The notes under the pieces were generated by a model, which saw only the letters and a program-made list of their open reading frames with translations, did not search any database and was not told the origin of the DNA. Source: an uncultured Flavobacteriales bacterium (GTDB lineage Bacteria; Bacteroidota; Bacteroidia; Flavobacteriales_D; Parvicellaceae). Taken from it: a DNA stretch of 64,000 nt. The number at the start of each line of letters is the position of its first letter. Position 1 is the first letter of the stretch. The DNA lies in NCBI GenBank assembly GCA_943788755.1, contig CALSRM010000001.1:1-64000 (forward strand), given 5' to 3'. Below, in pieces: positions 1 through 51,867 of the stretch. The position numbers and the translations under genes were made by a program.

Positions 1-984
1 GCTAGCCTCTTCATGCGTATAGATTATGGTTGAATGTCCATGAAAATCTTCAAGTTTTATGTTGAAAACCGCACCCGGACTGGTTTTGACTTTAAAAATT
101 ATTTTTGAAGTTGCTGTAATACCTCTAAAGTTCACTTGGTACCAGTTATTCCAGTTTATTCCCCACTTTGACCAATTACAATCGGGTTTGAAATTCCAAT
201 AGATATGTTGATTGTTTTCCTCTTGTCGTTCTTCCAATATTTGACAGTTATTATTCTCATATCCCCATATATCCTCTTTCAAGCTTCTTCCCGGATATAT
301 TGATTGATTAGCCTTTCCTTTTGGTTTCATGAGTTCAACTGCATCTCTCATTTGTTGGTATTCTTTTTTGGAATAATCTATTATCTCTATGTCATCAAGG
401 TAAAACGAACCTGTACCTTCTAATTGAAATTTAACCTGCTTTATGGAGTAGATATCAACTTCTTCTTCATTAACAGGAAAATCCCATAGTGGCACAACGA
501 TTTGTCTCCAAATCGAATCAATTTCTAGACCGTTAAGATATTTTTTAGCATCAACAAAATAGTAGCTTCCACCACCTCCAAAATCCTCTAAATTTGCAAC
601 TATTGGAATGGATTTAACCGGTTTAGAAGTTGATTTTACGTAAAACGATAAAGCTTTCTTAAATCTATCTTGTGATAAATCAACCGGAGCCCAATTGTTG
701 TAACTATTTCCAAATCCTGCCCACGTGCATCCTTTACCTCTATCCCATATAATTTTTATACAGCTTTTCCCGGAATGCGGCTGAATCTCATTAGTTAGAG
801 AGAATTCACCACATTCTGCTAATTCATGCCACATTGTTCCAAGTGCATCCTCAAATATGGTTTGAGCTCCTTGTTTTTTTGGCAGGGGCTTCTCATACCT
901 ATCGTAAAGGGTTTGTTTTTGGAACTTAACAGAACCGCAAGCACCTACAATAATTAGTATCCCTATGACAAATATGTTTTTCAA
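1..984 (-). CDS. Lipoprotein with carbohydrate-binding-like jelly-roll domains (3' end outside window)
   Basis: The frame stays open to base 1, so the C-terminus is missing (328 codons seen). The only reasonable start is a TTG at 984..982, which overlaps the TGA of the upstream gene as TTGA, indicating translational coupling. The N-terminus is a lipoprotein signal ending in lipobox VGAC with Cys16. Residues about 30-190 read like a CBM11/CIA30-type galactose-binding fold: a Trp-rich strand (WAGFGNSYNNW), a middle strand (KALSFYVKST) and the closing strand GSFYLDDIEII. A second, similar Trp-rich module starts near residue 235 (CNWSKWGINWNNWY). It is the last visible gene of a symporter/beta-barrel operon, so it may present or capture glycan at the cell surface. 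That role is inferred from fold resemblance and context; no catalytic motif was seen. Confidence 0.75.
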   Translation of the reverse strand, partial: MKNIFVIGILIIVGACGSVKFQKQTLYDRYEKPLPKKQGAQTIFEDALGTMWHELAECGEFSLTNEIQPHSGKSCIKIIWDRGKGCTWAGFGNSYNNWAPVDLSQDRFKKALSFYVKSTSKPVKSIPIVANLEDFGGGGSYYFVDAKKYLNGLEIDSIWRQIVVPLWDFPVNEEEVDIYSIKQVKFQLEGTGSFYLDDIEIIDYSKKEYQQMRDAVELMKPKGKANQSIYPGRSLKEDIWGYENNNCQILEERQEENNQHIYWNFKPDCNWSKWGINWNNWYQVNFRGITATSKIIFKVKTSPGAVFNIKLEDFHGHSTIIYTHEEAS

Positions 985-1991
985 GGGTTATATGGACCGT
1001 TAGAGGTGAATATTATATGGTCGAACAAGGCCTTGGCATTTCCGTTGTTTGGATCCGATAGAAAAAATAGGTTGACCGATAGCAGTTTAGAAGGCTCAGG
1101 TAAACCGTTTCCATTAGTAACTAATGGGTCACCGTTTTCATCTTGTGTTAAGCTAGCATATTCAACACTTACCAATTCCCAAATAGTATCAGTTGTCCAG
1201 TATTCATAGATATATCGGTCTTCCGTATTTGGGTCAAATATACCATCATCGTTTTCGTCTTCATCAAACCAAATTTGGATGAATGAGCTCGTTGGTCCAA
1301 CACTTTCAACTGGTTTAAGAGCCATATTAAAAAACAAATTGTTAGGGCTGGATTGTAGCGGAAAAGTTCCAGCATCTGGCTGTATAGAAACAGATCCTTT
1401 AGCCCAATCCCAGCCAACCACTCCTTCAACACTATAATGACAAGTACCCTTTGCAGATTCTCCATTTCCACATACAATTTCACCAGTTACCGTAGTTTGG
1501 TTAAAAACGACCCAATTTGATCCTGCACCATTTTCAAATCCTGTAATTAATACACCATCATCTATTTTTTCTCCTGTAATTGCCACTGTATCATACAATA
1601 CTGGCGATCCTTCTTCATTGGGAAATGTAATTTCTATGTAAACGTCCTCTATAGAGAATGCAGGGTAGGAGTTGGCTCCTCCGTTCCAAGTTGCGTTAGC
1701 ACTGGATAAAATGCGCTCCGATCCAGTAATGTTTCTTATTGCCCCAGAATTTGCTCCAGTAATAGTAATTACCCAATCCGTATTTTTCGATAATTCGCCA
1801 TTGAAAGATAGGTTTCCATCTAGAGCAAAATTTATTGGATTGTGGCTTACTGTGATGTTTTGAACAATGCTGAAAGGACCAAATAAATCATTTAAATCGG
1901 GTCCGTAGAAAGTTTCTGGTTCATTTTTTCTGCAGCCTGTAAAGAGAACCATGCCAATTGCTAATATTGATAATGTTTGTTTCATATTCAA
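981..1991 (-). CDS. Exported lipoprotein of unknown function in sugar-symporter operon
   Basis: 336 residues from a TTG at 1991, which overlaps the previous gene's stop as TTGA; an ATG at 1985 (MKQTLSIL) is the alternative start. A signal peptide ends in lipobox LFTGC with Cys20, so the protein is membrane anchored. The mature part is beta-rich, with many Asn, Thr and Gly residues, and carries an Asp-rich loop DENDDGIFDP near residues 250-260 that looks like a calcium-binding loop. A WDWAKGSVSI segment resembles strands of carbohydrate-binding modules. No family was recognised with certainty. Position between an outer-membrane barrel and a jelly-roll lipoprotein suggests a surface-exposed accessory of glycan capture. 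Confidence 0.8.
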   Translation of the reverse strand: MNMKQTLSILAIGMVLFTGCRKNEPETFYGPDLNDLFGPFSIVQNITVSHNPINFALDGNLSFNGELSKNTDWVITITGANSGAIRNITGSERILSSANATWNGGANSYPAFSIEDVYIEITFPNEEGSPVLYDTVAITGEKIDDGVLITGFENGAGSNWVVFNQTTVTGEIVCGNGESAKGTCHYSVEGVVGWDWAKGSVSIQPDAGTFPLQSSPNNLFFNMALKPVESVGPTSSFIQIWFDEDENDDGIFDPNTEDRYIYEYWTTDTIWELVSVEYASLTQDENGDPLVTNGNGLPEPSKLLSVNLFFLSDPNNGNAKALFDHIIFTSNGPYNP

Positions 1992-3706
1992 AAGAATAGG
2001 TTGTATAAAATAGTAAATTGAGACATTCCATAATCAATCACTGCATCATCTGCATGATTAATATTGAATTGCTGATAGTGCAAAGAGAAAATATTTTTTT
2101 CGCTGAATCTATATTGCAGACCCGCTGCAAGAACGTTTTCTGTGAAATTTAAATCAACAATATCGAAATCATCAATCGAATTGAATAGGTTTCTTTCATT
2201 GATAAAGGCATTTCCGCTAACTGACCATAGTTTTGCACCGGCTAGTATATCGAGTTTTTCCGCTATTTCCCAAGATAAACCAAGATCAATAAAAGTGCTT
2301 GCTAGTTGAATGTTTTCATATTCTTTTCCTGTCCTAGTGGTATTTTCATAACGCATTCCAAGATCTAATTTTAATAAACGATTCCATTTAAATAAATCAT
2401 TTAGATAAAGATCTGTTCCAGCTTCTGTAAGCAGGAAAATTTTCTTTTGAAGTGTTCCGGTTCCAACAGATTCTGTAAGTCCCGCAACTTTAATGAAAGA
2501 AGTCTTGAAACCAATAGAGTCTTTTCGCGCTAGATTAAGATAGATACCACGTCGATTTGGAGTAGCTGCTCCATAGGGGTTAGTGTTGTTGTAGGCAGCA
2601 TAATATGGCAATAGTTCTTCAGAAATTTTAAAAGAGTTGTCCGTATTACCACTAATAAAATCTGCATAGCTCAATACTCTTCCGAGTGAATTGTTTGTAA
2701 ACTGCTTATAAACTCTAGGGAATTTTGAATAGTCTATACGTTTTGTTTGAGCTGAAGGAGACCTAAAGTCTGCTCCTACATCTTTGTATCCAAGTTTTAC
2801 AATTACACCTTTATTTTTTAGGTTGGTGTAAATATTTGCATCTATAAACCAATCAGAAAGCGATTCGGGTGCTCGTGTGTCTTGATAATTGATGTAATTG
2901 GTAGATGACAATCCCATTTCCGAATTGAATCCAAATTCAAGACTGTCTTTTAAATCGTTTTTATACTCGAGGCTTGCTGTATGGACGGAATTCTTAAATT
3001 GAAGACTATCCGCTATTGTCTCAGTTAGGTCAAATATATTAGCACTATTAAAAAGGATCGACAAATTTTCTGAGGCCTCAATTCCAATCTTACCTCCCCC
3101 GAACATTCTCTCAGGTGTTGTTAATCCATCTGTCGTTTTTTGCCTCGTCATGAAGCCATGAAAATTAATAGCTTTAATACCTTTGTTGAAATTCAATCCA
3201 AATTTAGCTTGCGCTCCTTGCATACGCCAAGCATTTGAAGAGTCATTGTAAAACATATCATAATGAACAACTTGTCTTCTTGAAGCGAATATATCCGCTT
3301 CATTTATATTCCCTTCTTCCCCAAAATTCCAAACGGTATAGGGAGTTTGTTTGATGTCAATATCTCCTAATTCATAGCGAACAATATCGCCCGCTACTCC
3401 TTTTAAAGTCAATTGTCTTACATTAAAAGAAACGCCACCGCCCCAGAAACCTCCTAGTTCGTTGCGAATTCTAAACATACCAATTATTTCTGTGTTCTTG
3501 TTTGGAAAAGCACTTACTCCGAAATCTAGTAAAGAATGACCGTAGTTAGCTTTTCTGGTGGTAATGGTGTCTATATCATCATCAATATCCAAGTTATTCG
3601 AGAATATATAGGTTCTAGCACTTCCATTAATCTGGGATTTCTGTTTTTGGGCTAATACTGCTGGAATTAGCCCTAAGCATACTATTATTAGAGAAATTTT
3701 ACTCAT
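1988..3706 (-). CDS. Outer-membrane beta-barrel protein, operon member
   Basis: 572 residues. The first 19 form a signal peptide ending at AVLAQ. The rest alternates amphipathic strands with short turns, many strands starting with Gly or Asn and ending in aromatic residues, and the C-terminus is a beta-signal-like strand ending in Phe-Phe. There is no TonB plug and no carboxypeptidase-regulatory N-domain, so it is not a SusC-type receptor. The ATG overlaps the upstream stop by one base (TGATG) and the stop overlaps the downstream TTG start (TTGA). It probably forms a pore or surface scaffold for the substrate imported by the symporter of this operon; that is inference. Confidence 0.75.
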   Translation of the reverse strand: MSKISLIIVCLGLIPAVLAQKQKSQINGSARTYIFSNNLDIDDDIDTITTRKANYGHSLLDFGVSAFPNKNTEIIGMFRIRNELGGFWGGGVSFNVRQLTLKGVAGDIVRYELGDIDIKQTPYTVWNFGEEGNINEADIFASRRQVVHYDMFYNDSSNAWRMQGAQAKFGLNFNKGIKAINFHGFMTRQKTTDGLTTPERMFGGGKIGIEASENLSILFNSANIFDLTETIADSLQFKNSVHTASLEYKNDLKDSLEFGFNSEMGLSSTNYINYQDTRAPESLSDWFIDANIYTNLKNKGVIVKLGYKDVGADFRSPSAQTKRIDYSKFPRVYKQFTNNSLGRVLSYADFISGNTDNSFKISEELLPYYAAYNNTNPYGAATPNRRGIYLNLARKDSIGFKTSFIKVAGLTESVGTGTLQKKIFLLTEAGTDLYLNDLFKWNRLLKLDLGMRYENTTRTGKEYENIQLASTFIDLGLSWEIAEKLDILAGAKLWSVSGNAFINERNLFNSIDDFDIVDLNFTENVLAAGLQYRFSEKNIFSLHYQQFNINHADDAVIDYGMSQFTILYNLFF

Positions 3707-5616
3707 CAGAAGTTAATTTTTAGTTCGATTGTAGACTCATTCCCCGCAAATTTTGACAAAGCGTAACTCGTGTCTTCAAATTTGAAATACCTATGTCTAA
3801 GGTAAAGCATTGTGTTTTTTGCTAATACGTAATCTAGACCAAAACCTATTGCTAAACCATTTTGATTCAAAGGTCTATTAGATTCAATTTCTACTTGTGT
3901 AGAATAATTTCCAATTACACGCTCCAACCCTAAATATTGAGCCAGAACTAGTTTAGGATGAATTCTATAATAATTTTCAAACTGGTGAGCATAGTACCTT
4001 ATGTATGCATCTTCTGTGAATACAGTTATCGTAGAAAAATTAGGTTGGACTGAGTTATACATTCCCAAATAAAACATGTAAAATGGTCTGTCAAATAATT
4101 TGAACTCGTATTTCAATTGAGTTTCAATATTGTTGAAGTGTTTGTCGTTTACAACATTTCCACTGGCATCTAAATCAGTTAGATTAACTGTTTCGAATAC
4201 GCCTCGGTATAAAACAGAGAGTCTATTATATGGTCCAACATTGGCGGGGAAACTCCATCGCCAAAGCCTTGACATGGTTAGACCATTAATTGCATGTCCA
4301 TAGGTGATTTGATTATTGAGGTTTTCAATTTCTTGAGAAATCCCCATTCCAATGACCCCTTTGATGTGGTTCGAACCTAGTTTAATTTTGAAGTCTGAGT
4401 TAAGATTTAATCCTTGTCGGTTATTTGCCATTTGTCCAACCCCTAGCATGGCACTACCCGTTTGTTGCAGTACACCATTCGATCCGATAACTTGTTGTGA
4501 GCTAGCCGCAGCCGATGGAACTTCGACCACGGAGGTGTTAACAAATTCAGAATTGTTATTTACCACGTTCGAAGCGATGCGATATAAGTGGATCTCCATA
4601 GGTAATTTCCGAATTAACTTTTCAGTCAGTTTTATTTTGGTAGAAATGAGCTCTCCTATCCCTAAATCTTGATAAACATCTCTATATTGTCCAATACCAG
4701 CTTCTCCTGTTATTTCAATTTTATTGAACATAAAGTTAAAAGTAGTTGTATGCACGCTATTATGAATTTCATCTTGAGCAAGTAGGTCACTGTAACTATA
4801 TCGATTAAACGAGTTTAAACCTATTGAATGTTTTCCAAATACTTTGGTAAACTGACCACCATAGACATTGTTGGGGATGGTATTTTCTAGCAACCCAAGA
4901 AATGTAACCGAAGAAGAGTCTTCGGGAATACTGTTAGCTGCTGCAAATGCAGAGCCAGCATTTTGTGTTTTCCCGTAAATCAAGCTCAATGAGAGCCCTA
5001 GAGGGAGCTCTGTTATATCCATAATAAGCCCTTGAAATGCTTGCTGTGCCCATCTGGTATCTTGCGATATAGCACCTAGCTTGTAGTATTGTGAGTATCT
5101 TTCGTCAACATTTTTAAACTGTGGGTCCCAAGGGTTTCTCTCGAACAAACTGTAACGATTGAATCCGGCAAAAGACCGCATTGTAAACGGAGTCATTTGG
5201 TGCCAATGGATTCCTCCTGCTCGTATTCCAACATTTCCAAAATCAGTAGAAAAATTGCCATATAAATTGATTCCTAGCTGCAGATTTCTGTAGTAATCAA
5301 AATCTCCGGTCATTTGATTCCAGACTACTAAATCTGTCCCAAAAGATGTTTTAGAATTAGGTCTTCCACTAATATTTAGTGTCAACTCTGGCAATTGTGT
5401 AGCGTCACCAATAAGAATATTTCTTCCTTCCATATAGACCGGTTCTCCATTTGCTATTTCAAAAGCGTAAGGATCTGTTAGAAATCTGTGTTGACCGTAA
5501 AATCTATAATTACCGCTGATGCTTAGTCCTTGTAAAGGAGATGGTTTTACAAGACTGTCTTGAGCATTCGTGAATAACGAACAAATTATTGATATGGTAA
5601 TCATCCAAAATTTCAT
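3706..5616 (-). CDS. Large outer-membrane beta-barrel protein, operon member
   Basis: 636 residues from the ATG at 5616, which sits one base after the symporter stop (TAATATG); an in-frame ATG six codons upstream at 5634 is less likely because it precedes the signal peptide (MKFWMITISI to NAQ). The mature protein shows barrel-like strand periodicity throughout (for example LGINLYGNFS, MFYLGMYNS) and ends in IELKINF, a typical terminal strand with C-terminal Phe. No TonB box, plug or SusC features are visible. Two consecutive large barrels without a SusD partner is unusual for a Bacteroidota sugar locus. The substrate is unknown. Confidence 0.75.
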   Translation of the reverse strand: MKFWMITISIICSLFTNAQDSLVKPSPLQGLSISGNYRFYGQHRFLTDPYAFEIANGEPVYMEGRNILIGDATQLPELTLNISGRPNSKTSFGTDLVVWNQMTGDFDYYRNLQLGINLYGNFSTDFGNVGIRAGGIHWHQMTPFTMRSFAGFNRYSLFERNPWDPQFKNVDERYSQYYKLGAISQDTRWAQQAFQGLIMDITELPLGLSLSLIYGKTQNAGSAFAAANSIPEDSSSVTFLGLLENTIPNNVYGGQFTKVFGKHSIGLNSFNRYSYSDLLAQDEIHNSVHTTTFNFMFNKIEITGEAGIGQYRDVYQDLGIGELISTKIKLTEKLIRKLPMEIHLYRIASNVVNNNSEFVNTSVVEVPSAAASSQQVIGSNGVLQQTGSAMLGVGQMANNRQGLNLNSDFKIKLGSNHIKGVIGMGISQEIENLNNQITYGHAINGLTMSRLWRWSFPANVGPYNRLSVLYRGVFETVNLTDLDASGNVVNDKHFNNIETQLKYEFKLFDRPFYMFYLGMYNSVQPNFSTITVFTEDAYIRYYAHQFENYYRIHPKLVLAQYLGLERVIGNYSTQVEIESNRPLNQNGLAIGFGLDYVLAKNTMLYLRHRYFKFEDTSYALSKFAGNESTIELKINF

Positions 5617-5617
5617 A

Positions 5618-7264
5618 TTACCAGAATAATGCATATAAAACGATTAGCATCAAAATTACAGCAAAAGAAAGTACGTTGAACACAGGGGAGGTTGTAAATA
5701 AGGATTTATTTAAATCAATTCCTTTTTCATCATCTTGACCTTTGTTTTGACGGAAAGAAATAAGTATCATAAGAACAGCTGTAATTAGGAAAGTAAGTCC
5801 CATTTGGTGCATCCATGGCAGATCAGGGAAGAGATTACTATCGATCCATCCTTTTGACCCCACTTTGAAATAGAAGGCAATAGGAATAGATAAAAAGGCA
5901 CCTATTATCGCCGCCTTTCCAGTTGTTTTCTTCCAGAATAAGCCAAGAATAAATATAGCCAGTATTCCAGGACTAACGATTCCCGTATATTCTTGTATAT
6001 ATTGAAATGCTTGTGGTATACCACCTAGCATTGGAGCTACAAAAATGGCTATTATCAAAGCAGTTAATCCTGTAATTCTTCCAATATTTACTAATTGCTT
6101 TTCGCTTGCATTTTTATTGATAAGAGGTTTGTAGATATCCATTGTAAATATAGTGGAAGTACTATTCAGCATAGAGGCTAACGACGATACTATTGCTGCT
6201 GCAAGTGCTGCCAATACAAGTCCTTTTAAGCCGGATGGAACGTAGTTTGAGATTAGCCATGGGAATGCTTTGTCATTCATAATTTCACCATTAGGCCCTA
6301 TGAAATCAGCTGCCACTTGTGGACTATCCGTATACATTACAAATGCGATAATTCCTGGAATTACCACAATTAATGGTATAATCATTTTTAGTAGAGCGGC
6401 AAACACAATTCCTTTTTGAGCTTCTTTTAAGCTTTTTGCAGCAAATGTTCGTTGAATAATATACTGGTTAAATCCCCAATAATAAATATTTGCAATCCAC
6501 ATACCGCCAACTAGAACAGCGATGCCTGGTAGATTAGCATATTCGGGGTGACTTGAATCTAGTATCATGTCAAATTTCTCCGGAACTTTTTCATAGATGT
6601 ATTTTAACCCATTAATTATAGTATTGTCTGGAGAAACTTCAGATAGTGCAATGAATGTTGTAATTAGTCCTCCTACAACTAAAAGAATTACTTGAATTAC
6701 ATCCGTCCATGCAACAGAAGATAATCCTCCCCAAAGAGAGTAGGCGGCTGTAAATAAAGCAAGTCCTATTATACTATATACTATGGTTGAACCATCTCCA
6801 TTTCCAAGTATTGTGTCTAGCGCTGTTGCCCCTAGATAAAGCACCGACGTTAGATTAACAAATATAAAGAGCACAACCCAAAATACAGCTAATATGGATT
6901 TGACTTGAGAATTGTAACGTTTTTCTAGAAACTCAGGAATTGTATATAAACCTTTTTCGATAAAAATTGGTAAAAAGTATTTACCTACTATGATAAGCGT
7001 TAGTGCAGCCATCCATTCGTAAGAAGCAATCGCTAAACCCATGGCAAAACCAGAACCCGACATACCAATAAATTGCTCTGCAGATATGTTGGCAGCAATT
7101 AAAGAAGCTCCCACAGCCCACCATGGAAGCGATTTTGATGCTAGGAAATAATCTTTTGAGTTTTTTTCAATTCCATTTTTAGAACGTGACATGTATAATC
7201 CAACGCTTAGGATAAGAATTGAATAGACAACAAGGATTGAAACATCTAAAGTGGTAAGCATCAT
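5618..7264 (-). CDS. SGLT-type sodium:sugar symporter (vSGLT-like)
   Basis: 548 residues with about 14 hydrophobic helices; solute:sodium symporter family, LeuT fold, inner membrane. From memory it follows the Vibrio Na+/galactose transporter vSGLT almost throughout. Residues corresponding to vSGLT N64, E68, Q69 and E88 appear as N59, E63, Q64 (NISAEQF) and E83 (SYEW). The segment IANIYYWGFNQY carries the N260 and Y263 equivalents, FAALLK carries the K294 equivalent and AFQYIQEYTG the Q428 equivalent. The sodium-site segment AAIVSSLASM is intact. This supports real hexose transport, with galactose or glucose most likely. It is the first gene of a five-gene operon with a good promoter just upstream, next to the ruins of a Nudix-type sugar regulator. 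Confidence 0.95.
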   Translation of the reverse strand: MMLTTLDVSILVVYSILILSVGLYMSRSKNGIEKNSKDYFLASKSLPWWAVGASLIAANISAEQFIGMSGSGFAMGLAIASYEWMAALTLIIVGKYFLPIFIEKGLYTIPEFLEKRYNSQVKSILAVFWVVLFIFVNLTSVLYLGATALDTILGNGDGSTIVYSIIGLALFTAAYSLWGGLSSVAWTDVIQVILLVVGGLITTFIALSEVSPDNTIINGLKYIYEKVPEKFDMILDSSHPEYANLPGIAVLVGGMWIANIYYWGFNQYIIQRTFAAKSLKEAQKGIVFAALLKMIIPLIVVIPGIIAFVMYTDSPQVAADFIGPNGEIMNDKAFPWLISNYVPSGLKGLVLAALAAAIVSSLASMLNSTSTIFTMDIYKPLINKNASEKQLVNIGRITGLTALIIAIFVAPMLGGIPQAFQYIQEYTGIVSPGILAIFILGLFWKKTTGKAAIIGAFLSIPIAFYFKVGSKGWIDSNLFPDLPWMHQMGLTFLITAVLMILISFRQNKGQDDEKGIDLNKSLFTTSPVFNVLSFAVILMLIVLYALFW

Positions 7265-7287
7265 TTAATGATCTTAAATTATGACTG

Positions 7288-7318
7288 CTAAGATATTGTA
7301 AAAATTACATTAAGCAAG
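7288..7318 (-). promoter_or_regulatory. Bacteroidota-type promoter of the symporter operon
   Basis: Read on the minus strand: a TTG (7317..7315), 19 bases, then TATCTTAG (7295..7288). This matches the TTG / N19 / TAnnTTTG layout apart from one base of the -7 box. It lies 24 bases before the ATG at 7264. Confidence 0.5.
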
Positions 7319-7442
7319 TAAAAACTACAATTATCATAGAAATTTAATTCATTTTATCTGCAGTTATTGACCTATGCCTAATATAAACAAGTGCAATGAA
7401 ACCAAGATGTTTTGAATAGAGAAATAATTAGCAAATCGAGAA

Positions 7443-8159
7443 TTAAATTTCGAATGCAAACCCTTTTTCTTTTATTGTGTTATATCGCACTTCGTCAAAC
7501 TCAAAAAGTTTTGCTGGCCGGTGAGAAACATTTGCTTGTAAGCTCGCCGGTAGTTATTAAGAAATTCCATACTCAGAATTTTCTTTCTGAAGTTTCTTGT
7601 GTCCAATTTCAACGCCCAAAATAGCTTCATAGAGAAGCTGCAATTCCGTTAACGTGAATTTTGGAGGCAAAAGCTCAAAGCCGATCGGCTTTATCCTGAT
7701 GGAGCTTTGAAGTTTATCAAAGCATGTATTTAGAATTTTATTGTGGTCAAAGGCTAGTTCTGCAACATCTTCCATGTTGAACCACTTTGCTTCGCAAGCA
7801 AAAGAAGCCGGGTTTAAGCTCATAGTCGCTAATCTTTCACTAAGGTATAATAACTGGTTGTTAGGACTCTTCCAAAAGGATGCCGATCAACTTCTCCAAA
7901 TGTTTCTACTTGTTCAAAAAATAGATCATTTAGTCCTGTAAGATCATTGAGAACCTCATTGACGGAAGAATTGAGATCTTTTTCTGGTGCAAGAAGGTCT
8001 CCAGGCAGTGCCCAGTATCCCTTGAATGGACTGTCTCCTCTTTCAATTAGAAGGACTTTCAGTTTCTCACCGTCAAATCCAAATACCACACAATCAATGG
8101 ATAAGCCTAAGGTGAAAGTAATGTTTAAGTTCTTTGGGAATTAATGGGTTAGAATTCAT
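7443..8159 (-). pseudogene. Decayed Nudix-domain transcriptional regulator (NrtR/AraR type)
   Basis: About 239 codons, the usual family length, but the family sequence hops between frames. N-terminus MNSNPLIPKELK starts at 8159; then, after a shift near 8125, TFTLGLSIDCVVFGFDG. The Nudix part runs to YYTLVKD and a TAG at 7831. The peptide KISDYELKPG lies in a third frame, and ACEAKWFNMEDVAELAFDH with the winged-helix part FTLTELQLLYEAIL resumes from 7823. Another shift near 7600 gives RNFRKKILSMEFL, and one near 7540 gives the conserved end HRPAKLFEFD to KEKGFAFEI before a TAA at 7445..7443. That is at least four indels in 700 bases. Intact relatives repress sugar-catabolism genes in Bacteroidota, so this was probably the regulator of the adjacent symporter operon. 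The Nudix catalytic box looks degenerate, as is normal in this regulator family. Confidence 0.85.
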
Positions 8160-8161
8160 GA

Positions 8162-8194
8162 ATTGCAATATAACAAAAATCGACTTATTGCAAT
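8162..8194. promoter_or_regulatory. Pair of ATTGCAAT palindromes upstream of the regulator pseudogene
   Basis: The self-complementary octamer ATTGCAAT occurs at 8162-8169 and 8187-8194, 25 bases centre to centre, immediately upstream of the former regulator's start codon (8159). It could be a fossil auto-operator. Its short length and AT-rich setting keep confidence low. Confidence 0.25.
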
Positions 8195-8243
8195 TTATAT
8201 TTTTGAAAAATTAATTTTATTACAAAATAATATACTATTTTAG

Positions 8244-8265
8244 CTTATTGTTTTTAAACAATAAG
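8244..8265. promoter_or_regulatory. Perfect 10-bp inverted repeat between regulator remnant and adhesin gene
   Basis: CTTATTGTTT (8244-8253), two bases, AAACAATAAG (8256-8265): perfect arms. There is no T-tract, so an operator is more likely than a terminator. The outer halves, TTATTGT and ACAATAA, are shared with the palindrome at 13042-13064. Confidence 0.45.
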
Positions 8266-8381
8266 TGGCTCGGTTCCTATTGCATTTTGTAATATTTTGA
8301 TAGACACAGATTCAGTGCTTAAGTAACATGAAACCTGAGGCTAAATTAAAACGAACAAAAAACTAAAAATTAATATTTATT

Positions 8382-11300
8382 ATGAGAATTCTAATCGTTT
8401 ATATAATTTTCACTCTTTGTCTGTATGAATCTTTTTCTCAGGCAATAACGGTGAATGGTGTGGGTTTAACATCAGCTTCCTCGGGAGGGGCTCCAACTTC
8501 TTGCAATGGTGATTATAAATTTCAAAATAATGCGATTCCATCCCCATCCATTTCGGGTAATTGTGTTACTCTCACGGATGGAACTCCAGCTAATGGAGAG
8601 GCTGATATCTGGATATGTGGGGCGTTGGATTTAACCAATGATTTTAATCTCACTTTTACAGCAAATTTTGGAACAAACCCAAATTCAGGAGACGGTATTG
8701 CTTTTGTTCTAAACGGAAATAATGATGCCCCCCTGGGCGGTGTTGGTGGAAATATAGGATATGAGTCTCTCAACAATATAGTTGCAGTGGAGTTTGATAC
8801 TTGGCCTGATGCAGATATTAGTTGTCATCACGCTGAAATTAATCAAAATGGATTTTCAAACAACCTATCTTCTCCAATTCCTCTGAAATCTTGCTGTGGA
8901 TCAATAATTGATGGTTCCGACTATGATATTTGTATAACTTGGGATGTTTTAACCGGGACAACGGGCAACTTAATTGCTACGTTTGATGGCAATGTGGTTG
9001 GGTCTTATTCTGGTGATCTTGCGGTTCTTTTGGGTAATAATTCTTCTCCTAACTGGGGTTTTACTTCGGGATGTGGTGCTGGAGGAGGTCAAATTCAAAC
9101 AGTTTGTGATGCTGTTATGGAGAACCAGTCATTAACAGTGTCTAGTTGCTCAACATGCACCCCCCCCGCAGTAACGGCGAATCCCATAACGGAAACAATT
9201 TGCTCAGGTGAAACAACAAGTCTATCTATTTCTGGATCTGGAGGGACATCTTATTGTTGGCAAGCTTCAGATAATCTGAACGTTAATGGAGAAACTACCA
9301 CAATAACAAATGAAACATTATCAAGCTTTATTATTGGTGAAACATTGACCAACGGTGTCCCAGGGACACAAACAGTAACTTATAATGTTTACCCTGAGAG
9401 TAATTCGGGATGTTTTGGTGCACCACTAAGTCTTGTGGTTACAGTTTTGGATGCAGGGGACCCTGCTTGTAATTGCCCATCTCCTTATACGGCCAGTGCT
9501 CCTTCTAGTGCTCCCACCATTTGCTTATCTGCTCCAATAGTGGACATAACGCATAGTACAGCGAATTCTAGCGGTATAGTCAATGATGGTATTAATGGAG
9601 CCAATGGGTTACCGCCTGGAACTAGTGCCTCTTTTTCTGGTAATACAGTTAATGGTGCCATTACAATAGCCGGAACTCCAACTCAAGCAGGTACATTCAA
9701 TTATTCAATTCCTTTTACAGGTGGTTGTGGAACTGCAACTGCTACAGGAACAATTACAGTTATTCAAACTCCAACAGCAGATTCACCAACTGGATGTAAC
9801 TGCTTGTGATAGTTATGTTCTTCCATCTTTAAGCGTTGGGGATTATTTTTCATCTCCCAATGGAGTAGGTCCTATCTCGGTTGGTTCATCTATTACCATC
9901 TAACTCAGACGATTTATGTTTATGCAGAGACTGGCACTGTCCCTAATTGTACGGATGAAAATTCTTTTACAGTAACGATTAATACCGCACCAACAGCAGA
10001 TTCACCGACTGATGTAACTGCTTGTGATAGCTATGTTCTTCCACTTTTAAGCGTTGGGGATTATTTTTCATCTCCCAATGGAGTAGGACCTATCTCGGTT
10101 GGTTCATCTATTAATACTACTCAGACAATTTATGTTTATGCAGAGACAGGAACCGTACCTAATTGTACGGATGAAAATTCTTTTACAGTGACGATTAATT
10201 CGACACCAGTGGCGGATTCACCAACTGATGTAACTGCTTGCGATAGCTATGTTCTTCCATCTTTAGGTGTTGGGGATTATTTTTCATCTCCCGGTGGTGT
10301 AGGACCTATTTCAGTTGGTTCAACTATTACTGCTACTCAGACAATTTATGTTTATGCAGACTCAGGAACCGTGCCTAATTGTGCAGATGAAAATTCTTTT
10401 ACAATTGATATTGCTACATTCAATACTGGAACAGATGTTCAATTAGCTTGTGATTCATATGTTTGGATTGACGGTAACACTTATACAGCATCAAATAATA
10501 CCGCTCAGTGGACTTTAACGAATATAGCTGGATGTGATTCCCTTATTACCTTGGATCTTACAATAAACCCTTCTCTTTCTGGACCCAGTATTGACAATTC
10601 TTCCATTGTTATAATTCCAGAAACATGCGCTTCTGAAAATGGTTCGATTACTGGAATAGTCGCTTCCGGAGGACAGCTGCCTCATGTTTATGATTGGAAT
10701 GGGGTAAGTAGCTCTTCAGCTGATACATTGGGATTAGCAGGAGGAAGTTATACACTTACTGTAACAGACGATAATGGTTGTTTTTCTACATTCGGTCCTA
10801 TTGTTGTCGGCTCTATTAGTGGGCCATCAATTGACCCAACTCTTATTAGTATTATAAATGAAGATTGTAATGCAGGAAATGGTTCGATTACTGGAATAAC
10901 TATTATAGGTGGGACTGGTCCCTATTCATATGCTTGGAATGGAGTAGCTGGAAACCTGGATGCCACTAATTTATCCAACAACGATTACTCCTTGGTGGTA
11001 ACAGATGATAACGGATGTACAGATTCTTATGGCCCAATTTCAATCAGTAATTCAGGTGCTCCTAATGCTGATTTTGACTTATCTGGGAACCCGATTTCTC
11101 TGGGTGAGGCTTTATTGGTCACCAATAATTCATCTAACGGTGCAGTATCCTATTTATGGGATTTAGGCGATGGTACTACATCAACCAATGGCGATCCATC
11201 TATTACCTATAACGCTGAAGGAGCTTATACGATTTGCTTAATTGCATATACTGCAACAAACTGTCCAGATACCGCATGTCAGACAGTAGAAGTTATTGAA

Positions 11301-11582
11301 GAAGTAGAATCAGTTATTGGAATACCTACCGCATTCTCTCCAAATAACGATACCCATAATGATGTGCTTTACGTAAGAGGTTCAGGAATTCAATCTTTTA
11401 CTTTAGTTATTTACAATAGGTATGGTGAGAAGGTTTTTGAAACTAACGACTTGTCTAGTGGCTGGGATGGGACCTACAAAGGACAACCCGAAAACACTGG
11501 GGTCTTTGCTTACTACTTGGAATATGAATACGTCAATGGGGATAAAAGCTCGTTGAAAGGAAACATAACTTTGGTTAAATAA
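8382..11582 (+). pseudogene. T9SS type-B adhesin with L-type lectin domain, frameshifted in repeats
   Basis: A signal peptide (residues 1-19) is followed by an L-type (legume) lectin-like domain at about residues 20-250, recognisable from GDGIAFVLNG, VAVEFDTW, CITWD and WGFTSGCG. Then come Ig/PKD-like domains, three 72-residue repeats, two SprB-like repeats (DDNGC motifs) and a C-terminal gliding-motility sorting domain (TAFSPNNDTHNDVLYV ... WDGTYKG ... ITLVK). The frame from 8382 stops at 9809 because repeat copy 1 has an extra G near 9797 (CAACTGGATG versus CGACTGATG in copy 2). About 100 bases on, two extra bases near 9895 restore the original frame, which then runs to 11582. The net change is +3, yet the TGA remains. 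The cognate PorP/SprF gene follows 19 bases later. If the stop is real, the lectin domain is made without its sorting signal. Confidence 0.85.
9771..10421 (+). repeat. Three tandem 72-residue (216-219 bp) repeats
   Basis: Units begin at 9771, 9990 and 10206 with the theme ADSPTDVTACDSYVLP, then VGDYFSSPxGVGPISVGS and TQTIYVYA. Copy 1 is 219 bp because of three inserted bases at two places; copies 2 and 3 are close to 216 bp. Confidence 0.85.
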
Positions 11583-11601
11583 ATTGTTAAAACAACAAGA
11601 C

Positions 11602-12612
11602 ATGAAAAAATTAGTATTTAGCATATTAGCCTTAAGCATATTCATAAATGGACAAGCGCAACAAGACAGACACTACAGTATGTTTTACGCCTCTCCAATG
11701 GCAATAAACCCGGGAGCAACGGGATTTTTTCCTGGCGATATTCAATTGTTTACAGGATTTAAAAACCAATGGAAAGCAATTAGTTCAAACCCTTACAATA
11801 CAATTTCAGCAAGTATCGACTCTAAACTAATGAAAGGAAAATCAAACAATAGTTTTCTAGGGTTGGGAGTCAATTTCTACAACGATAAGGCTGGTGATAG
11901 TCAATTGACAACAAACATAACGAACATAAGCATAAATTACGCAATTGAAGTAGCTGAAAACCATCAACTAGCGCTAGGTATTCAACCTTCATTTTTCCAA
12001 AGATTTGCAAGTATGGAATCCTTAACTTGGGACGAACAATGGACAGGATCAAATTTTGATTCAAATTTGGAAAACGGAGAAACATTAGGAACTAATAAAT
12101 CATTTAAATTTGACATTAATTCAGGACTTTACTATTTTGGAAAACTAAACAACCAAAACTCCCTAAATTTTGGTGTTTCTGTGGCGCACTTATTGAAACC
12201 GCAAAACACATTGCTAAATGCAAATGAAAACCTCTATCAAAAGTATACGATTCATGGAGGGGGAGAGTTTAGTCCAGACAATTCTAAAATAGCCTTTTCG
12301 CCAAATATGATTTACTTTATCCAAGGTCCAAATCAGTCATTATCAGTTGGAACAGATTTCATTTACTCTCTTCAAGAAAGTTCTAAATATACCGGCTATT
12401 ATGACAAATCAACTATTTCAATGGGAGCTTATGTACGAGTTGGAGATGCCTTTTATACTACGCTATTCTTAAATTTCGCTTCCTTTTCCTTAGGTGTAAG
12501 CTATGACTTAAATATGTCAGGATTAGCCCTTGCTAGTGAGGGAAGAGGAGGAATGGAAATGTTGCTTAGGTATAGAATGAATCTATCTAAACAAGGAGCT
12601 GCTAGTTTTTAG
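11602..12612 (+). CDS. PorP/SprF family type IX secretion partner protein
   Basis: 336 residues from the ATG at 11602 (an in-frame TTG at 11584 precedes the signal peptide MKKLVFSIL to GQAQ). The family signature is clear: QDRHYSMFYASPMAINPGATGFF, then KNQW near residue 60, LGLGVNFYNDKAGDS, and the final strands SFSLGVSYDLN and GGMEMLLRYRM. The family forms outer-membrane beta-barrels. SprF is needed for secretion of SprB, and related proteins sit next to type-B sorting-domain substrates. That arrangement is seen here, since the gene follows the lectin adhesin at 8382-11582. This partner gene is intact although its substrate is frameshifted. Confidence 0.92.
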   Translation: MKKLVFSILALSIFINGQAQQDRHYSMFYASPMAINPGATGFFPGDIQLFTGFKNQWKAISSNPYNTISASIDSKLMKGKSNNSFLGLGVNFYNDKAGDSQLTTNITNISINYAIEVAENHQLALGIQPSFFQRFASMESLTWDEQWTGSNFDSNLENGETLGTNKSFKFDINSGLYYFGKLNNQNSLNFGVSVAHLLKPQNTLLNANENLYQKYTIHGGGEFSPDNSKIAFSPNMIYFIQGPNQSLSVGTDFIYSLQESSKYTGYYDKSTISMGAYVRVGDAFYTTLFLNFASFSLGVSYDLNMSGLALASEGRGGMEMLLRYRMNLSKQGAASF

Positions 12613-12663
12613 AAGATTGTTATTTTTCCCCCAATAATATTAAAATAACCTTCGTTGTGAGGT

Positions 12664-13038
12664 TTAGATGTTGTTCACTATACCCTTGAATAGGAGATTT
12701 GCACTGGCTGGATTTGTTGCCAAAGGGACATCATGTACGTCACAAATTCTCATAAGCATAGAGATATCTGGTTCGTGCGGATGTTTGTCTAGTGGATCTC
12801 TGAAGAAAATAACAATATCACATTTCCCTTCGGCGACGCGCGCAGCTATTTGGGCGTCACCTCCGATTGGTCCGGATAATAATTTAGTCACTTTGAAACC
12901 TGCTTTTTCTACCTTTGAACCTGTCGTTCCCGTTGATATAAGTGTTACTTCATTTTTGTGAAGGGTTTCCGCTTGTTCATTTAAAAACTGAACCATCTCA
13001 GCTTTCTTTCCGTCATGTGCAATTATTGCAATTTCCAT
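12664..13038 (-). CDS. mgsA: Methylglyoxal synthase
   Basis: 124 residues. Converts dihydroxyacetone phosphate to methylglyoxal and phosphate (EC 4.2.3.3), a cytoplasmic bypass of lower glycolysis. Diagnostic segments are STGTTG (phosphate loop), SGPIGGDAQIAARVAEG, the DPLDKHPHEPDI block with the conserved catalytic Asp and His, and CDVHDVPLATNPASA. The length is normal (bacterial enzymes are 120-155 residues). It is a single gene, convergent with the PorP/SprF gene, and lies directly behind a perfect palindrome and a consensus -7 box. That arrangement suggests dedicated control. Confidence 0.96.
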   Translation of the reverse strand: MEIAIIAHDGKKAEMVQFLNEQAETLHKNEVTLISTGTTGSKVEKAGFKVTKLLSGPIGGDAQIAARVAEGKCDIVIFFRDPLDKHPHEPDISMLMRICDVHDVPLATNPASANLLFKGIVNNI

Positions 13039-13041
13039 ATA

Positions 13042-13064
13042 GTTATTGTATTAAATACAATAAC
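13042..13064. promoter_or_regulatory. Perfect 23-bp palindrome between promoter and start of mgsA
   Basis: GTTATTGTATT, one central A, AATACAATAAC: 11-bp perfect arms. It occupies nearly all the space between the -7 box (13064-13071) and the mgsA ATG (13038), so it would cover the transcription start. It could act as an operator or as a 5'-UTR hairpin. Confidence 0.6.
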
Positions 13065-13071
13065 AAAGATA
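13064..13071 (-). promoter_or_regulatory. -7 box of mgsA promoter
   Basis: TATCTTTG on the minus strand, an exact TAnnTTTG, 26 bases before the mgsA ATG. No clear TTG lies at the usual -33 spacing. Confidence 0.5.
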
Positions 13072-13464
13072 CACTTTTATTGATTAAGACCTTTTTTAAT
13101 AATTGTAAACAATATCATTTGAGTGATTATATAGTATATATTAATTTTACTCCAAGAAAAGAACTTGATTGAAAAGGAGAAAAATCGTTTAAACAGAAAT
13201 CATAAATGGGTACAGTCATAAAAAATTTGGAGCCTTTAAAAACATATAAAACCTCTATTATATTTTGTATGTTTTATTTTGTTGGATTTTTTAGACTAAA
13301 TTATGTATGGAGAAAATTTCATTTCAAATCTCATAAGCTCTTATTTTTATTGCTCTCAACTTTACTTTTGTTTGAAGTAATGTCACTTTTCAATATGATA
13401 AAGTGTGTATCGTTTGTCTTTTGGATCTTTTTTGCGTTTTATTGATGTTTTACCTTCGATTTTC
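13072..13464. other. AT-rich stretch without convincing gene
   Basis: Nothing solid. A 79-codon frame at 13206-13445 (plus strand) is hydrophobic and AT-rich but has no family features. It ends just before the OmpA remnant and may be decayed upstream sequence. Confidence 0.3.
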
Positions 13465-13638
13465 ATGTTACTTTCTAAGAAAAGAGCAGAAGCGGTAAAA
13501 GAATTTTTAATACAATTTGGTATTGATGAAAATAGAATTGTAGTAGACTTTTCTGGCGAAACTAAACCGATATCTACTAACGATACTGAAGAAGAAAGAA
13601 GTCATAACCGTAGGGTGGATATGGTTGTTATTCATTAA
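13465..13638 (+). pseudogene. C-terminal fragment of an OmpA-family protein
   Basis: 57 codons. LSKKRAEAVKEFLIQFGID, RIVVDFSGETKP and the final SHNRRVDMVV are the closing third of an OmpA peptidoglycan-binding domain. The N-terminal half, including the conserved TGHTD region, and any barrel are absent upstream. The remnant is followed directly by repeat copy 1 and its terminator. Confidence 0.75.
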
Positions 13639-13668
13639 TAATGAAAGGTGTTTTCAAGGAGATTTAAA

Positions 13669-13734
13669 GCGGTTATTCCAACGCTTTCAAATCCTCCAAA
13701 AAGTTTGAACTCCTTCCTGTCGAGGTCACTAAAG
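13669..13734 (+). repeat. Dispersed terminator-linked repeat, copy 1
   Basis: The core CCTCCAAAAAGTTTGAACTC, 11 variable bases, then GAGGTCACTAAAG, preceded by TTATTCCAACGCTTTCAAAT. The block is shared with 22169-22236 and 23205-23250 in the same orientation, and each copy is followed by a hairpin plus T-run. Confidence 0.75.
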
Positions 13735-13735
13735 T

Positions 13736-13774
13736 AAAAGGCAATTATCTATATTATAGGTAGTTGCCTTTTTT
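13736..13774 (+). terminator. Intrinsic terminator after repeat copy 1
   Basis: Arms AAAAGGCAA (13736-13744) and TTGCCTTTT (13764-13772), with a run of T into 13774. The A-rich left arm could let it work on the minus strand too. Confidence 0.7.
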
Positions 13775-13932
13775 GATTCCCCACATATTCCCCACATTGA
13801 GTGATTTAATTACTTATTCTTGTGTTTCCTCCTCCATTTAGATTTCTCATACTTCCAAGATGTAGGGCGAGAGAATAGCATATGAATAGTAGTTCAATGT
13901 ATTTCACTTGTAGTTAGATTAAAATTTAAATT

Positions 13933-14485
13933 ATGAAAAAGATATTGTTTGTATTGTTCGTTTTCTCTTTAGTATTTGCAGGCTGCAAAAAAAAAGGGAT
14001 GTACGGATCCTGCTGCTAATAACTATGATCCCAATGCAACTCAATAAGATGGCTCTTTTGAGTTTGCTACATTAACAACTGCAAGTGCAACTAATGTAAC
14101 TACTGCATCAGCAACCTTAGGTGGTAATATAACTGCTAACGGAGGCAGCTCAGTAATCCAAAGAAGAGTATGCTACGGCACATCAACCAGCCCAACCACA
14201 TCTAATAGCGCTACTAATGATGGAAGCGGAATAGGAAGTTTTAGTATTAACCTTACAGGTTTAACGGCAGGGACAACTTATTACGTTAGGGCTTACGTAA
14301 CAAATAGCGCAGGCACAGCTTATGGTAATGAAGTTAGTTTTACAACTACAGCCGGTGGTGGAGTTGGCCTTGCAATAGGTGACAGTTATCAAGGTGGTAT
14401 TATCTTTTATTTAGATGGATGTGGCGGAGGCTTAATTGCTGCTCCCTCAGATCAATCTACATCCGCTGAATGGAATAGAATCTAG
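13933..14485 (+). pseudogene. Decayed lipoprotein with FN3-like domain
   Basis: A good signal and lipobox (FAGC) start at 13933, but a run of nine A at 13987-13995 shifts the frame and TAA follows within a few codons. In the next frame the known Bacteroidota motif GCTDPAANNYDPNATQ appears, then a TAA at 14045-14047, then DGSFEF (normally DGSCEF). After that comes an FN3-like domain (ATNVTTASATLGGNIT to GTTYYVRAYVTNSAGTAYG) and GDSYQGGIIFYLD ... GLIAAPSDQS, which opens a DUF1566-like C-domain that is cut off at 14485. Two lesions plus truncation make this a pseudogene. Confidence 0.8.
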
Positions 14486-14696
14486 TCCTTCAGGAAACAT
14501 TATGTATAAAGAAGAACATGAAGCTTTTACAGATCATAATGGTTTGTTCTCGTTGGTGATTGGGCACGGAGATATTACAAGTTTAAGTGTTGTTAATACT
14601 GTTCTTGATGTAAATTGGGGAACGTATAAACATTTTCTACAAGATACAAATCGATTTGATGGTCAATTGTTTTTAATCAACTTGTATCTTTTATAG
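14469..14696 (+). pseudogene. Fragment of tail-like exported protein
   Basis: In a frame different from the preceding remnant: SPSGNIMYKEEHEAFTDHNG, FSLVIGHG and NWGTYKHFLQ. This is the pattern seen in large Bacteroidota surface proteins (NxxGxxxLxIGxG ... WGxxxHFLxV). No start and no complete domain. It appears to be a second dead fragment joined to the end of the lipoprotein pseudogene. Confidence 0.55.
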
Positions 14697-14807
14697 GAGT
14701 TAATTTTAAAGTTTTTCCCTTATTAATTAAGCGATACGCTCTTTTATCAATAATTTGAAAAATATTTGGATTTTTATATCAGCGAACAAAAGATGCTAAA
14801 ATAACCT

Positions 14808-16625
14808 TTATTTTTTTTTAAATGTTATTTCAAAACAAGTGCCCTCTCCCAAAATTGATTTAGCGACAATTTTTCCTTTGTTAACTTCAACGTATTCTTT
14901 AGCGATACTTAAACCTAAGCCCGTCCCCTGAATTTCTGTTACATTGTCTGCACGGAAAAATGGTTCAAATAAATGTTCTTGTTCTTTTTCTGGAATACCT
15001 AAACCATAATCTTTCACCGAAATAACCACTTCTTTTGGTTTAAAATCGATCCGTAATTCCGGATTTTTATTTCCTTTAGAATATTTAAAAGCATTACTGA
15101 TTAAATTAGACAATGTATGATCGAGTAATTTGGGGTCTAATTTCATATTACAAGTTTCTCCGCTTATCAAAAAATCAATTACTCTTTTGTCTTCCTGAAT
15201 TAAATTGAATTTTTTAACCAAATTATTACAAAAATCATGGACATTTAAAGCCTCTGGATTATAGGCAACAGCTCCAGATGTAAGTTTGCCAAGTGCAAGA
15301 ACGTCATCCATTAATTCCGTCATTTTGGAAATTGATTCTATAATACGATTGGTTATTTTTTTATATTTTTCTTTACTCTGTTTATTATCCGAAGTACCTA
15401 ACATTTCCAATAATTCTGTATTCGACTGAATAACTGAGAGAGGTGTTCTAAATTGATGAGATGCAACGGCAACAAAACTAGATTTTAATTGACCTAGCTC
15501 TTTTTCTTTAATTAATGATTTGTATATTAAAAACACAATAGTTAAAGTGCCCAAAAGCAAAACCGCTATTGCAAGTATAATTAGATTCTGTCTTTTATCT
15601 TTTTCAGCTGCAAGTAACTCCTTTTTTTCTTGTTCTAATTGAATTTTGTCACGTTCTTTATCGTATTTATATTCCATTTCTGCTATTGCCAAAGCTTCAA
15701 CATTTTCTCTTTTTTGAAGCGAATCACGAACATTAATAAATAACTGATAATACAGATATGCGCTTTCTAAATCATCTTCCACTTCATAAATGAGATATAG
15801 CTTTTCAAAAGCATCTTTCATGCCTTCCATGTAATTAATTTCTTGTGCATTAATCATGGCATTTTCATAATATTCAATGGCTATGGCAGTCTTTCCAATG
15901 TCGGCATAAATGTTCCCAGAGTTGATTTGTAATATACACAAGCTTTGAAAATCTTCATTTTTTTCTGCGCTGACAATCGCTATATTGAAAAATTTTAGTG
16001 CGTCTTCTTGTTTTCCACTGCTATTATAAATACTGCCGATAGTTGAGTAAACTGAAATAAGCTTTTTATTATCCTCCAATATAGCGTAGATAATTTTTGC
16101 TTTTTCAGCAGAGGAGAGTGCTTTTTCAAACTCTCCCGTCAAATAGAATACATTCGCCATATTGATATGCGTATGGCCTATTCCTGCTTGGTCATTTATT
16201 CGTGTATTTATCTCAAGGGCTTTAGAAAAATAATTTTCAGCTTTCTCTGCGTCGTTTGTGACCAAATAAATATTTCCAATGTTGTTAAGGTCAATGGCTA
16301 TAGAGGCATCATCATTGAGCGTTTCATCTGTTTTCAACCCTTTAAAATAATAGGAAAGACTTTTAGCGTAATTTCCTTTCATGTACCATGAAGTTCCTAG
16401 GATAGTATAGGCTTTTGAAAGTAAGCTCATTTGCTTCAGTGTATCTAGCTTACTCAAACTTCTTTCCGCTAGAACAATAGCTGAATCAGGATAACTGTAC
16501 AATATTTCATCCGCATTTTTGAGAAGAATATTAATTTCTTTATCCCTGGATTCATTTTGCGCATAAAAAATTTGTGTGTTTGCAAGGATTGTAAGTAATA
16601 GAAAATATTTCAGTATTTTTTGCAC
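14808..16625 (-). CDS. Tetratricopeptide-repeat sensor histidine kinase
   Basis: 605 residues. A signal peptide (ending near residue 22) leads into about six TPR units (residues 40-300), a coiled-coil (DKERDKIQLEQEKKELLAAE), one membrane helix (LIILAIAVLLLGTLTIVFLIY, about 345-365), a HisKA dimerisation domain with phospho-acceptor His in ASHQFRTPL, and a HATPase domain with N-box NLISNAFKYS and G-boxes DYGLGIP and GTGLGLSI. The periplasmic TPR part probably senses a protein or peptide signal and the cytoplasmic kinase phosphorylates a response regulator that is not encoded nearby, so it is an orphan kinase. The 3' end is A-rich (EITFKKK). Confidence 0.93.
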   Translation of the reverse strand: MQKILKYFLLLTILANTQIFYAQNESRDKEINILLKNADEILYSYPDSAIVLAERSLSKLDTLKQMSLLSKAYTILGTSWYMKGNYAKSLSYYFKGLKTDETLNDDASIAIDLNNIGNIYLVTNDAEKAENYFSKALEINTRINDQAGIGHTHINMANVFYLTGEFEKALSSAEKAKIIYAILEDNKKLISVYSTIGSIYNSSGKQEDALKFFNIAIVSAEKNEDFQSLCILQINSGNIYADIGKTAIAIEYYENAMINAQEINYMEGMKDAFEKLYLIYEVEDDLESAYLYYQLFINVRDSLQKRENVEALAIAEMEYKYDKERDKIQLEQEKKELLAAEKDKRQNLIILAIAVLLLGTLTIVFLIYKSLIKEKELGQLKSSFVAVASHQFRTPLSVIQSNTELLEMLGTSDNKQSKEKYKKITNRIIESISKMTELMDDVLALGKLTSGAVAYNPEALNVHDFCNNLVKKFNLIQEDKRVIDFLISGETCNMKLDPKLLDHTLSNLISNAFKYSKGNKNPELRIDFKPKEVVISVKDYGLGIPEKEQEHLFEPFFRADNVTEIQGTGLGLSIAKEYVEVNKGKIVAKSILGEGTCFEITFKKK

Positions 16626-50248: not shown

Positions 50249-50500
50249 CTACTTCTTTGTTTTGTAAGGTAAGTGTTTTGTTAATTGAATTCCTTTAAAA
50301 AATATGCCATTAGCAGTTTTTTTGCGATTGAATATTAAGAGAACTGCAAATATGACTTCCGATACACTTTGAGAGGTGAAAAAAGCAGCAGGTGCCTTAA
50401 TATTATTGAGGAGGTCAAAAACATTAAAGGGTTTAGGTGATCTAAATACACCTTCTGTATAAGTTTTATCTAAATCAATTATGTCACAATACTTATTCAT
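50249..50500 (-). CDS. Unknown 83-residue protein within the mutase operon
   Basis: [14 protein letters not shown] start, basic C-terminus ([11 protein letters not shown]), one weakly hydrophobic segment ([12 protein letters not shown]). No family recognised. It overlaps the end of the small-subunit gene by eight bases and ends one base before scpA, so it is translated with them. It may be a genuine small operon gene or the shortened end of another protein. Confidence 0.55.
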
Positions 50501-51867
50501 AACTGGCGCTTAACCTAATTTGTGGGATAGGGTTAATAGACGTGTTCTCTAATCTACCTTTCAATTCTGAACCTACGGTATAGTCGTCAGTTTCATTTAT
50601 AAACTTATTGACTCCAATCATTGTTCGCTTATCTTCTTTTAAATCATTAACCTTTTTCTCTAGCTCTTTATTGATTTGCTTCTGAATATCACCATTTTTT
50701 AATGCAGTTATAAACCCACCAGTTTTTTCGATGGAGAGAAAATTAGCCCAAGACTTTTTCTTTATGATGCTAATCAAGTTTTCAACGTAGTAAGAGCCTT
50801 TTGAAGTGTCTTTAACTTGGTTTAAATAGCTTTCTTCTTGAAAGAGTAATTGAATATTTTTTGAAATTCGTTGACCAAACTCATTATTACCCGTAGTATT
50901 GAGGTTAAATGGAAGAAGTGAGAGTGAGTGGCAGCCTCCGAGCACTGCGCTCATGCCTGATGTAGTGGCTCTCAAAAGATTGTTATACATGTCCTTGTTA
51001 GAATAGTATAAGTTCGCATTAATAGCGTGAATTTTTGTTTCAATATCTTCTATCAAAATGTATTGATTAATTATGATTGACCAAAGAGACCGAAAAGCTC
51101 TCAATTTACCAATTTCTAAAAAATACGATGTTCCAACCCCAAAAGCAAATTCTGTTTTTTGAATTATCTTTTCAAGAATAATAAGGTCATCTTTAAATAG
51201 GTTTAAATACTCGTTAGCATGCGCTATAGCATATGCTATTTGTGTATCCACATTTGCTCCTCCATTACAATAAGTTGCAGCATTAATAGTTAAGAATAGA
51301 GAAATTATTGAAATTATCTGCAGCTAAAAGTACTTCTGCAATTGAGGATAAATCTTTTTTTTCATCTTCCACCCAATTTCCAGATAATGCAACATTTCCA
51401 ATAGGGTCGTAGATAAACCCACCTTTCAGGTTTTTAGTGTCAATGTTTTCCGAAGTACAATATTGATAAAATGTATCAATAATAGATTTAGGATTAGTTG
51501 TGTTAATGTCGATATAAACGTGAATAATATCAAGCATAACTCCACTAAAAACATCGTTAATGTTTTTAGATGATAAATTAGATATCTCAATAGAATTAAC
51601 GCCTCCTTTTAAAGCTAATAAAATTTGCTCATTTGCTCCTTTCGCAGCAGCGTCAAATCGTTGTCTAATGTTCCAACTGTTGTTTTCTTTTTGCTGGAAG
51701 TTGTCAGAGGTAACTTCTTCATAATGAAAAAGAACGGGATTTATTGGTCCTATTTCAGACTCCCAAAATAGAGATTCTAGCGATTTTCCTTTTAAATCAG
51801 AAGTGATTTTATTTAACCATCCTTCCTGGGTTCCTGGTTCAAAAACACTTAATAAATCCTTTGTCAT
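50493..51867 (-). pseudogene. mutA: Methylmalonyl-CoA mutase small subunit, frameshifted
   Basis: Fragment 1, 51867 to 51283 (194 residues): FEPGTQEGWLNKITSDLKGKSLESLFWE, NNSWNIRQRFDAAAKGANEQILLALKGGVNSIEI. Fragment 2, 51251 to 50493: NVDTQIAYAIAHANEYL ... GVGTSYFLEIGKLRAFRSLWS, VLGGCHSLSLLPFN, KGSYYVENL. The peptide joining them, TINAATYCNGGAN, is present in the frame of fragment 2 at about 51293-51254, and the first frame ends SILNY then TAA. A single base near 51293-51305 is therefore inserted (or two lost), not in a homopolymer. Full length would be about 458 residues, close to the family norm. If the shift is real the heterodimer is lost, though the large chain might still act alone as a homodimer. 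Confidence 0.85.

Follow-up and report, generated by a model that had tools for sequence, protein, structure and literature searches.

A broken regulator gene and its neighbours

The window analysed here, meaning the whole 64 000-nucleotide stretch at the start of a contig from an uncultured Flavobacteriales bacterium (genome G000), carries, less than 13 kb from the contig start, a gene for an NrtR/AraR-type regulator (7443–8159, minus strand) that combines a Nudix-like domain with a winged helix-turn-helix (wHTH). From the ATG to the stop, which fall exactly at these two positions, the full-length protein is readable across three frames, with several frame changes needed on the way. A profile search with this read-through peptide matched the Pfam families NUDIX (2e-5), NrtR_WHD (4e-24) and AraR_C (2e-13) in the expected order, which confirms the original prediction of a full-length regulator with each of its segments intact at the peptide level. 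Set against two intact relatives (see below), the lesions are six single-base insertions, near 8117, 7837, 7817, 7613, 7560 and 7545, with no net deletions; at least four indels had been predicted.

On one side of the regulator lies an intact SSF sodium:solute symporter gene (5618–7264, minus strand; Pfam SSF, 6.9e-73), whose conserved adjacency makes it the probable target gene. The same operon includes intact genes for a 642-aa protein (3706–5634, minus strand) and a 572-aa protein (1988–3706, minus strand), both putatively outer-membrane-like and neither matched by any Pfam or NCBIfam model, and a gene for a 336-aa protein that, judged by eye from its N-terminus, is probably a lipoprotein (981–1991, minus strand). 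The symporter and the two outer-membrane-like genes (1988–7264) carry no indel. On the other side is the gene of a divergent repeat protein (8382–11582, plus strand). The repeat proteins of the window and of the two related loci L035 and L036 are secreted and are built of tandem units of ~216 bp whose number varies: three units were counted in the window and eight in L036 (copy B below), with fewer matched by the same pattern in L035 (copy A). Upstream of the regulator, a palindrome, TTATTGTTTTTAAACAATAA (8245–8264), occurs also in both related copies. Its matches in the window are no more numerous than expected by chance, so its candidacy as an operator, which we regard as weak, rests on position and conservation.

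Relationship to AraR and NrtR

When the intact copy A was used as query, the nearest solved structure was Bacteroides thetaiotaomicron AraR (1.6e-44), followed by the Nudix-family regulator 3gz5/3gz6; together with the Pfam domains, this supports the predicted family. As in other NrtR-family proteins, an N-terminal Nudix-like domain is followed by an NrtR-type winged HTH, and the catalytic Nudix box is impaired. In the canonical motif (GX5EX7REUXEEXGU) the glutamates are replaced in this family (PMC4666351), and the EE pair is absent from both intact copies.

AraR itself (BT0354; PDB 5bs6, 5dd4, 5ddg, 5deq; PMC4666351) has the Nudix-like domain and winged HTH in common with our regulator, and at the positions of its sugar contacts Arg34, Arg86 and His131 the regulator has Arg40, Arg92 and His138, which are invariant in 12 relatives. 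In contrast, the AraR pocket residues Phe36, Gly48 and Phe49 are replaced by Asp42, Asp54 and Leu55. Since the three contact residues are kept while other pocket residues differ, the ligand is expected to be a sugar other than that of AraR. The linkage of AraR to arabinose genes is not shared either: the regulator's neighbours are the SSF symporter and the outer-membrane proteins, then, on contig C5 of the related genome G003, members of families GH3 and GH16. The same domain architecture is found in NrtR, the ADP-ribose-responsive repressor of NAD metabolism (Shewanella, PDB 3gz5/3gz6). However, scores against the NCBIfam model for that protein, NF050029, were 138.2 and 143.8 bits, far under its equivalog cut-off of 400 bits, and there were no NAD genes among the regulator neighbours examined.

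A conserved operon of probable beta-glucan type

In G039, L055 and L056 the regulator is followed, in the same order as here, by the SSF symporter, the ~640-aa and ~570-aa proteins and the lipoprotein, whose gene is cut by the contig end in L055. Looser versions of the regulator–symporter–outer-membrane order occur at L085 and L094, and at L097, L120, L126 and L132 the last three genes of the operon lie near the regulator, with SSF undetected. This synteny supports the earlier proposal that the adjacent symporter operon is the probable target.

On contig C5 of G003, the next genes of the operon encode a protein with a weak, below-cut-off CBM30 match, a GH3 enzyme, a T9SS-sorted protein, a GH16 enzyme and a GH2-type hydrolase. 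Beyond an opposite-strand gene follow glucose-6-phosphate dehydrogenase, 6-phosphogluconolactonase and a 6-phosphogluconate-dehydratase-type enzyme. This gene content suggests that the operon serves the uptake and use of beta-glucan. No SusC or SusD match was found among the genes scanned in the operon (window 1–7264, L045:1529–13486), and Entner–Doudoroff-type genes come after it. By homology, the regulator would repress this symporter, outer-membrane and glycoside-hydrolase operon as an NrtR-family protein responding to a sugar or glycan, with repression relieved by the sugar, as the analogy with AraR would have it.

Two intact copies in a related genome

Among the 40 related genomes of our comparison set, G003, a same-genus metagenome-assembled genome (uncultured Flavobacteriales bacterium isolate AF_MB37), has the regulator twice, full-length and in a single frame each time, as copy A (contig C23, locus L035) and copy B (contig C16, locus L036). 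The read-through peptide is 94% and 92% identical to these copies. Both adjoin the same symporter and outer-membrane genes; of their 711 bases 91 differ, and neither copy has an indel relative to the other. They are known only from G003. Its contigs are tangled, in that they share, overlap and break within the same block, and the contig of copy A has single-base insertions near the window equivalents of 6295 and 11212, which split its symporter and repeat-protein genes.

The genome of the window contains a single assembled copy of the block, and a second was not found in it. The right flank of copy A was located in this genome at C1:~190–204 kb, where the genes before it, judged by eye to be glycosyltransferase-like and XerD-like, stand in place of the block.

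The first 13 kb of the window are close to other genomes. Positions 1–13136 are 95–100% identical to several overlapping G003 pieces (1–2512 at 99.9%), and 1–3302 are 97% identical to G002; unlike these, 23476–55331 are 87–91% identical to G003. The high identity of the first 13 kb could reflect either a recent interspecies transfer or a shared collapsed assembly block.

Further along, three window genes (30134–32622, 50496–51867 and 51968–53022) are frame-broken relative to G003, with net single-base changes near 32276, 51293, 52243 and 52205. A histidine kinase gene (14808–16625) has a C-terminal part with ~69–74% DNA identity to a tandem kinase array found elsewhere on the same contig (G000:C1:190–204 kb, L139) and in G003. 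Between the methylglyoxal synthase and kinase genes (13040–14800) there are only short ORFs, one of which (13405–13638) resembles, by eye, a C-terminal fragment of OmpA.

A fine mosaic of two haplotypes

Three-way alignment of the window with copies A and B, summarized in 250-base bins, divided the first part of the window into alternating haplotypes. From 2513 to ~7250 the window is nearly identical to B, and from ~8250 to ~9740 it is close to A. Between them lies a mixed zone (approximately 7250–8270, from the alignment and its site list) in which the sequence passes from B to A as a fine mosaic, intermediate between the two copies and with hardly any substitutions of the window's own. Beyond ~10190 B predominates again, apart from a brief A-like stretch around 12200–12400. 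Inside the regulator, 31 of the 84 adjacent site pairs show a change of allele, in places even between neighbouring bases, and there is one window-unique substitution.

The repeat gene is itself chimeric, with an A-type 5′ part and a B-type 3′ part, and a second switch zone, from A to B, lies in one of its repeat units (9777–9971, plus strand). This unit equals that of copy A except for three inserted bases (9791, ~9900 and 9904), each accounted for by a base found in a different one of the repeat units of A or B, and the frame effects of the three cancel.

Inserted bases are second alleles

A dynamic programme in which each A/B difference may emit the A allele, the B allele or both accounted for all but one of the edits in the regulator. 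Its coding region (717 bases) required 41 edits if derived from A alone and 50 if derived from B alone; an A/B mosaic without the ‘both’ option required seven, whereas the model with it left one edit unexplained, and the repeat unit left none, as would be expected of an artefact of mixed templates. All six insertions in the regulator are sites at which the A and the B allele are both retained. None of 600 mosaics simulated with six insertions, random or duplicated, came below three unexplained edits. In the gap between regulator and symporter, one more inserted base fits the same model, while two (7428–7429) are left over by it in its simple form. The nine both-allele events of the regulator and the repeat gene sit at the two places where the contig switches between A and B.

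Allele choice within the regulator is also skewed in composition. At sites that set a strong against a weak base, the window takes the G or C allele in 62 of 72 cases (one-sided binomial P = 1e-10), with A supplying 30 of these alleles and B 32, and the long flanks display no comparably strong preference. A plain random mix of templates would not predict this. Polarization with G039 as outgroup gave an apparent excess of ‘derived’ alleles, which is probably an effect of composition.

Origin of the frame breaks

We consider it very probable that the lesions of the regulator are a consensus artefact of mixed templates. Reads of two near-identical templates, A and B, which may be two strains or two copies of a block of roughly 10–13 kb, would have been merged into a single contig close to its end. 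Where this contig passes from B to A, the consensus would have chosen one allele per site, mostly G or C, and at some sites would have written both alleles side by side, thereby shifting the frame. It is possible that a polisher with an asymmetric error model favoured the same base in every 50:50 column, and the same polisher could have written both bases where it cost less to assume a deletion in each read than a rare substitution in half the reads. Collapsed alleles are known to yield mosaic consensus sequences, with possible frameshifting errors (HiCanu; PMC7545148), and strains about 98% identical are merged by Flye into consensus contigs (PMC8302730). The setting of the locus points the same way: it lies near a contig start, and the block around it is common to several G003 contigs, which overlap and are interrupted there. 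Our case resembles these in that one consensus alternates between two real sequences and acquires frameshifts in coding regions. It differs in that the mixture is deduced from relatives, and in the both-allele insertions and the G/C preference, which are described from this case alone. As a counterpoint, A and B come from G003 while the genome of the window has a single assembled copy, the contigs of G003 are themselves tangled, and that of copy A also contains single-base insertions, at two sites.

The original prediction was of a recent pseudogene accumulating indels beside a symporter operon that had become constitutive or had come under other control, and six frame-breaking indels in one gene, with the adjoining symporter and outer-membrane genes intact, do have that appearance. 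Neutral decay, however, is expected to add substitutions as well as indels, and to place those indels without exact regard to the differences between two relatives. Here all six are insertions, all lie at A/B differences and all equal the other allele, so that neither allele-independent lesions nor the substitutions of a separate lineage (there is one unique substitution) are in evidence, and the next gene has events of the same kind at the other switch point. We thus regard decay as very unlikely, and with it falls the support for a loss of operon control. Ordinary random long-read consensus error, dense in the regulator by chance, fails on the same ground and is the least probable of the readings: other single-base indels do break genes at ~32276, 51293, 52205 and 52243, but these amount to about four net frame-breaking sites in the roughly 32 kb compared, as against six in 0.7 kb, and random insertions miss the A and B alleles, as the simulations showed. 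The density of lesions had been taken to argue against random consensus error. That they are not random stands, yet their pattern fits a systematic two-template consensus error. Nor is the contrast with neighbouring genes as clean as was claimed, since the symporter and the two outer-membrane-like genes are free of indels whereas the repeat gene carries shifts of +1 (~9791) and +2 (~9900–9904) and three further genes of the window are frame-broken relative to G003.

An in vivo recombination junction between A and B, with ~1 kb of heteroduplex whose mismatches were repaired singly, with a G/C bias and base-adding errors, would place the mosaic exactly where B gives way to A, as observed, and would accommodate the choice of G or C from both copies nearly alike (30 from A, 32 from B, of the 72 strong/weak sites). 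Against it, switching between adjacent bases would need single-base repair patches throughout. Furthermore, we know of no repair process that retains both alleles side by side, and such retention would have had to occur nine times over two junctions. We hold this origin of the insertions to be highly improbable, and it is extremely unlikely that the mixed zone is a real, fossilized junction, with ~1 kb of heteroduplex and most mismatches repaired towards G/C; if it were, it would document, down to the single base, a strong GC bias of conversion in a bacterium.

We also considered, and rejected, the possibility that the window represents the true ancestral haplotype of A and B. That history would require six spots at which A lost one of two neighbouring bases and B the other. 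In addition, the protein of the window, when set against relatives, mixes A-specific and B-specific states.

Implications

A mixed-template consensus of this kind can be recognized without reads: where a cluster of frameshifts falls at the differences between two relatives and the inserted base is the other allele, a consensus error from mixed templates is the probable cause. Such clusters, dense and limited to a single gene, can mislead surveys of pseudogenes in metagenome or repeat-rich assemblies. For the locus studied here, both the supposed pseudogene and the supposed loss of regulation fall away. The real genome or genomes most likely hold an intact regulator, and the gene is probably an ordinary regulator of a conserved beta-glucan-type operon.
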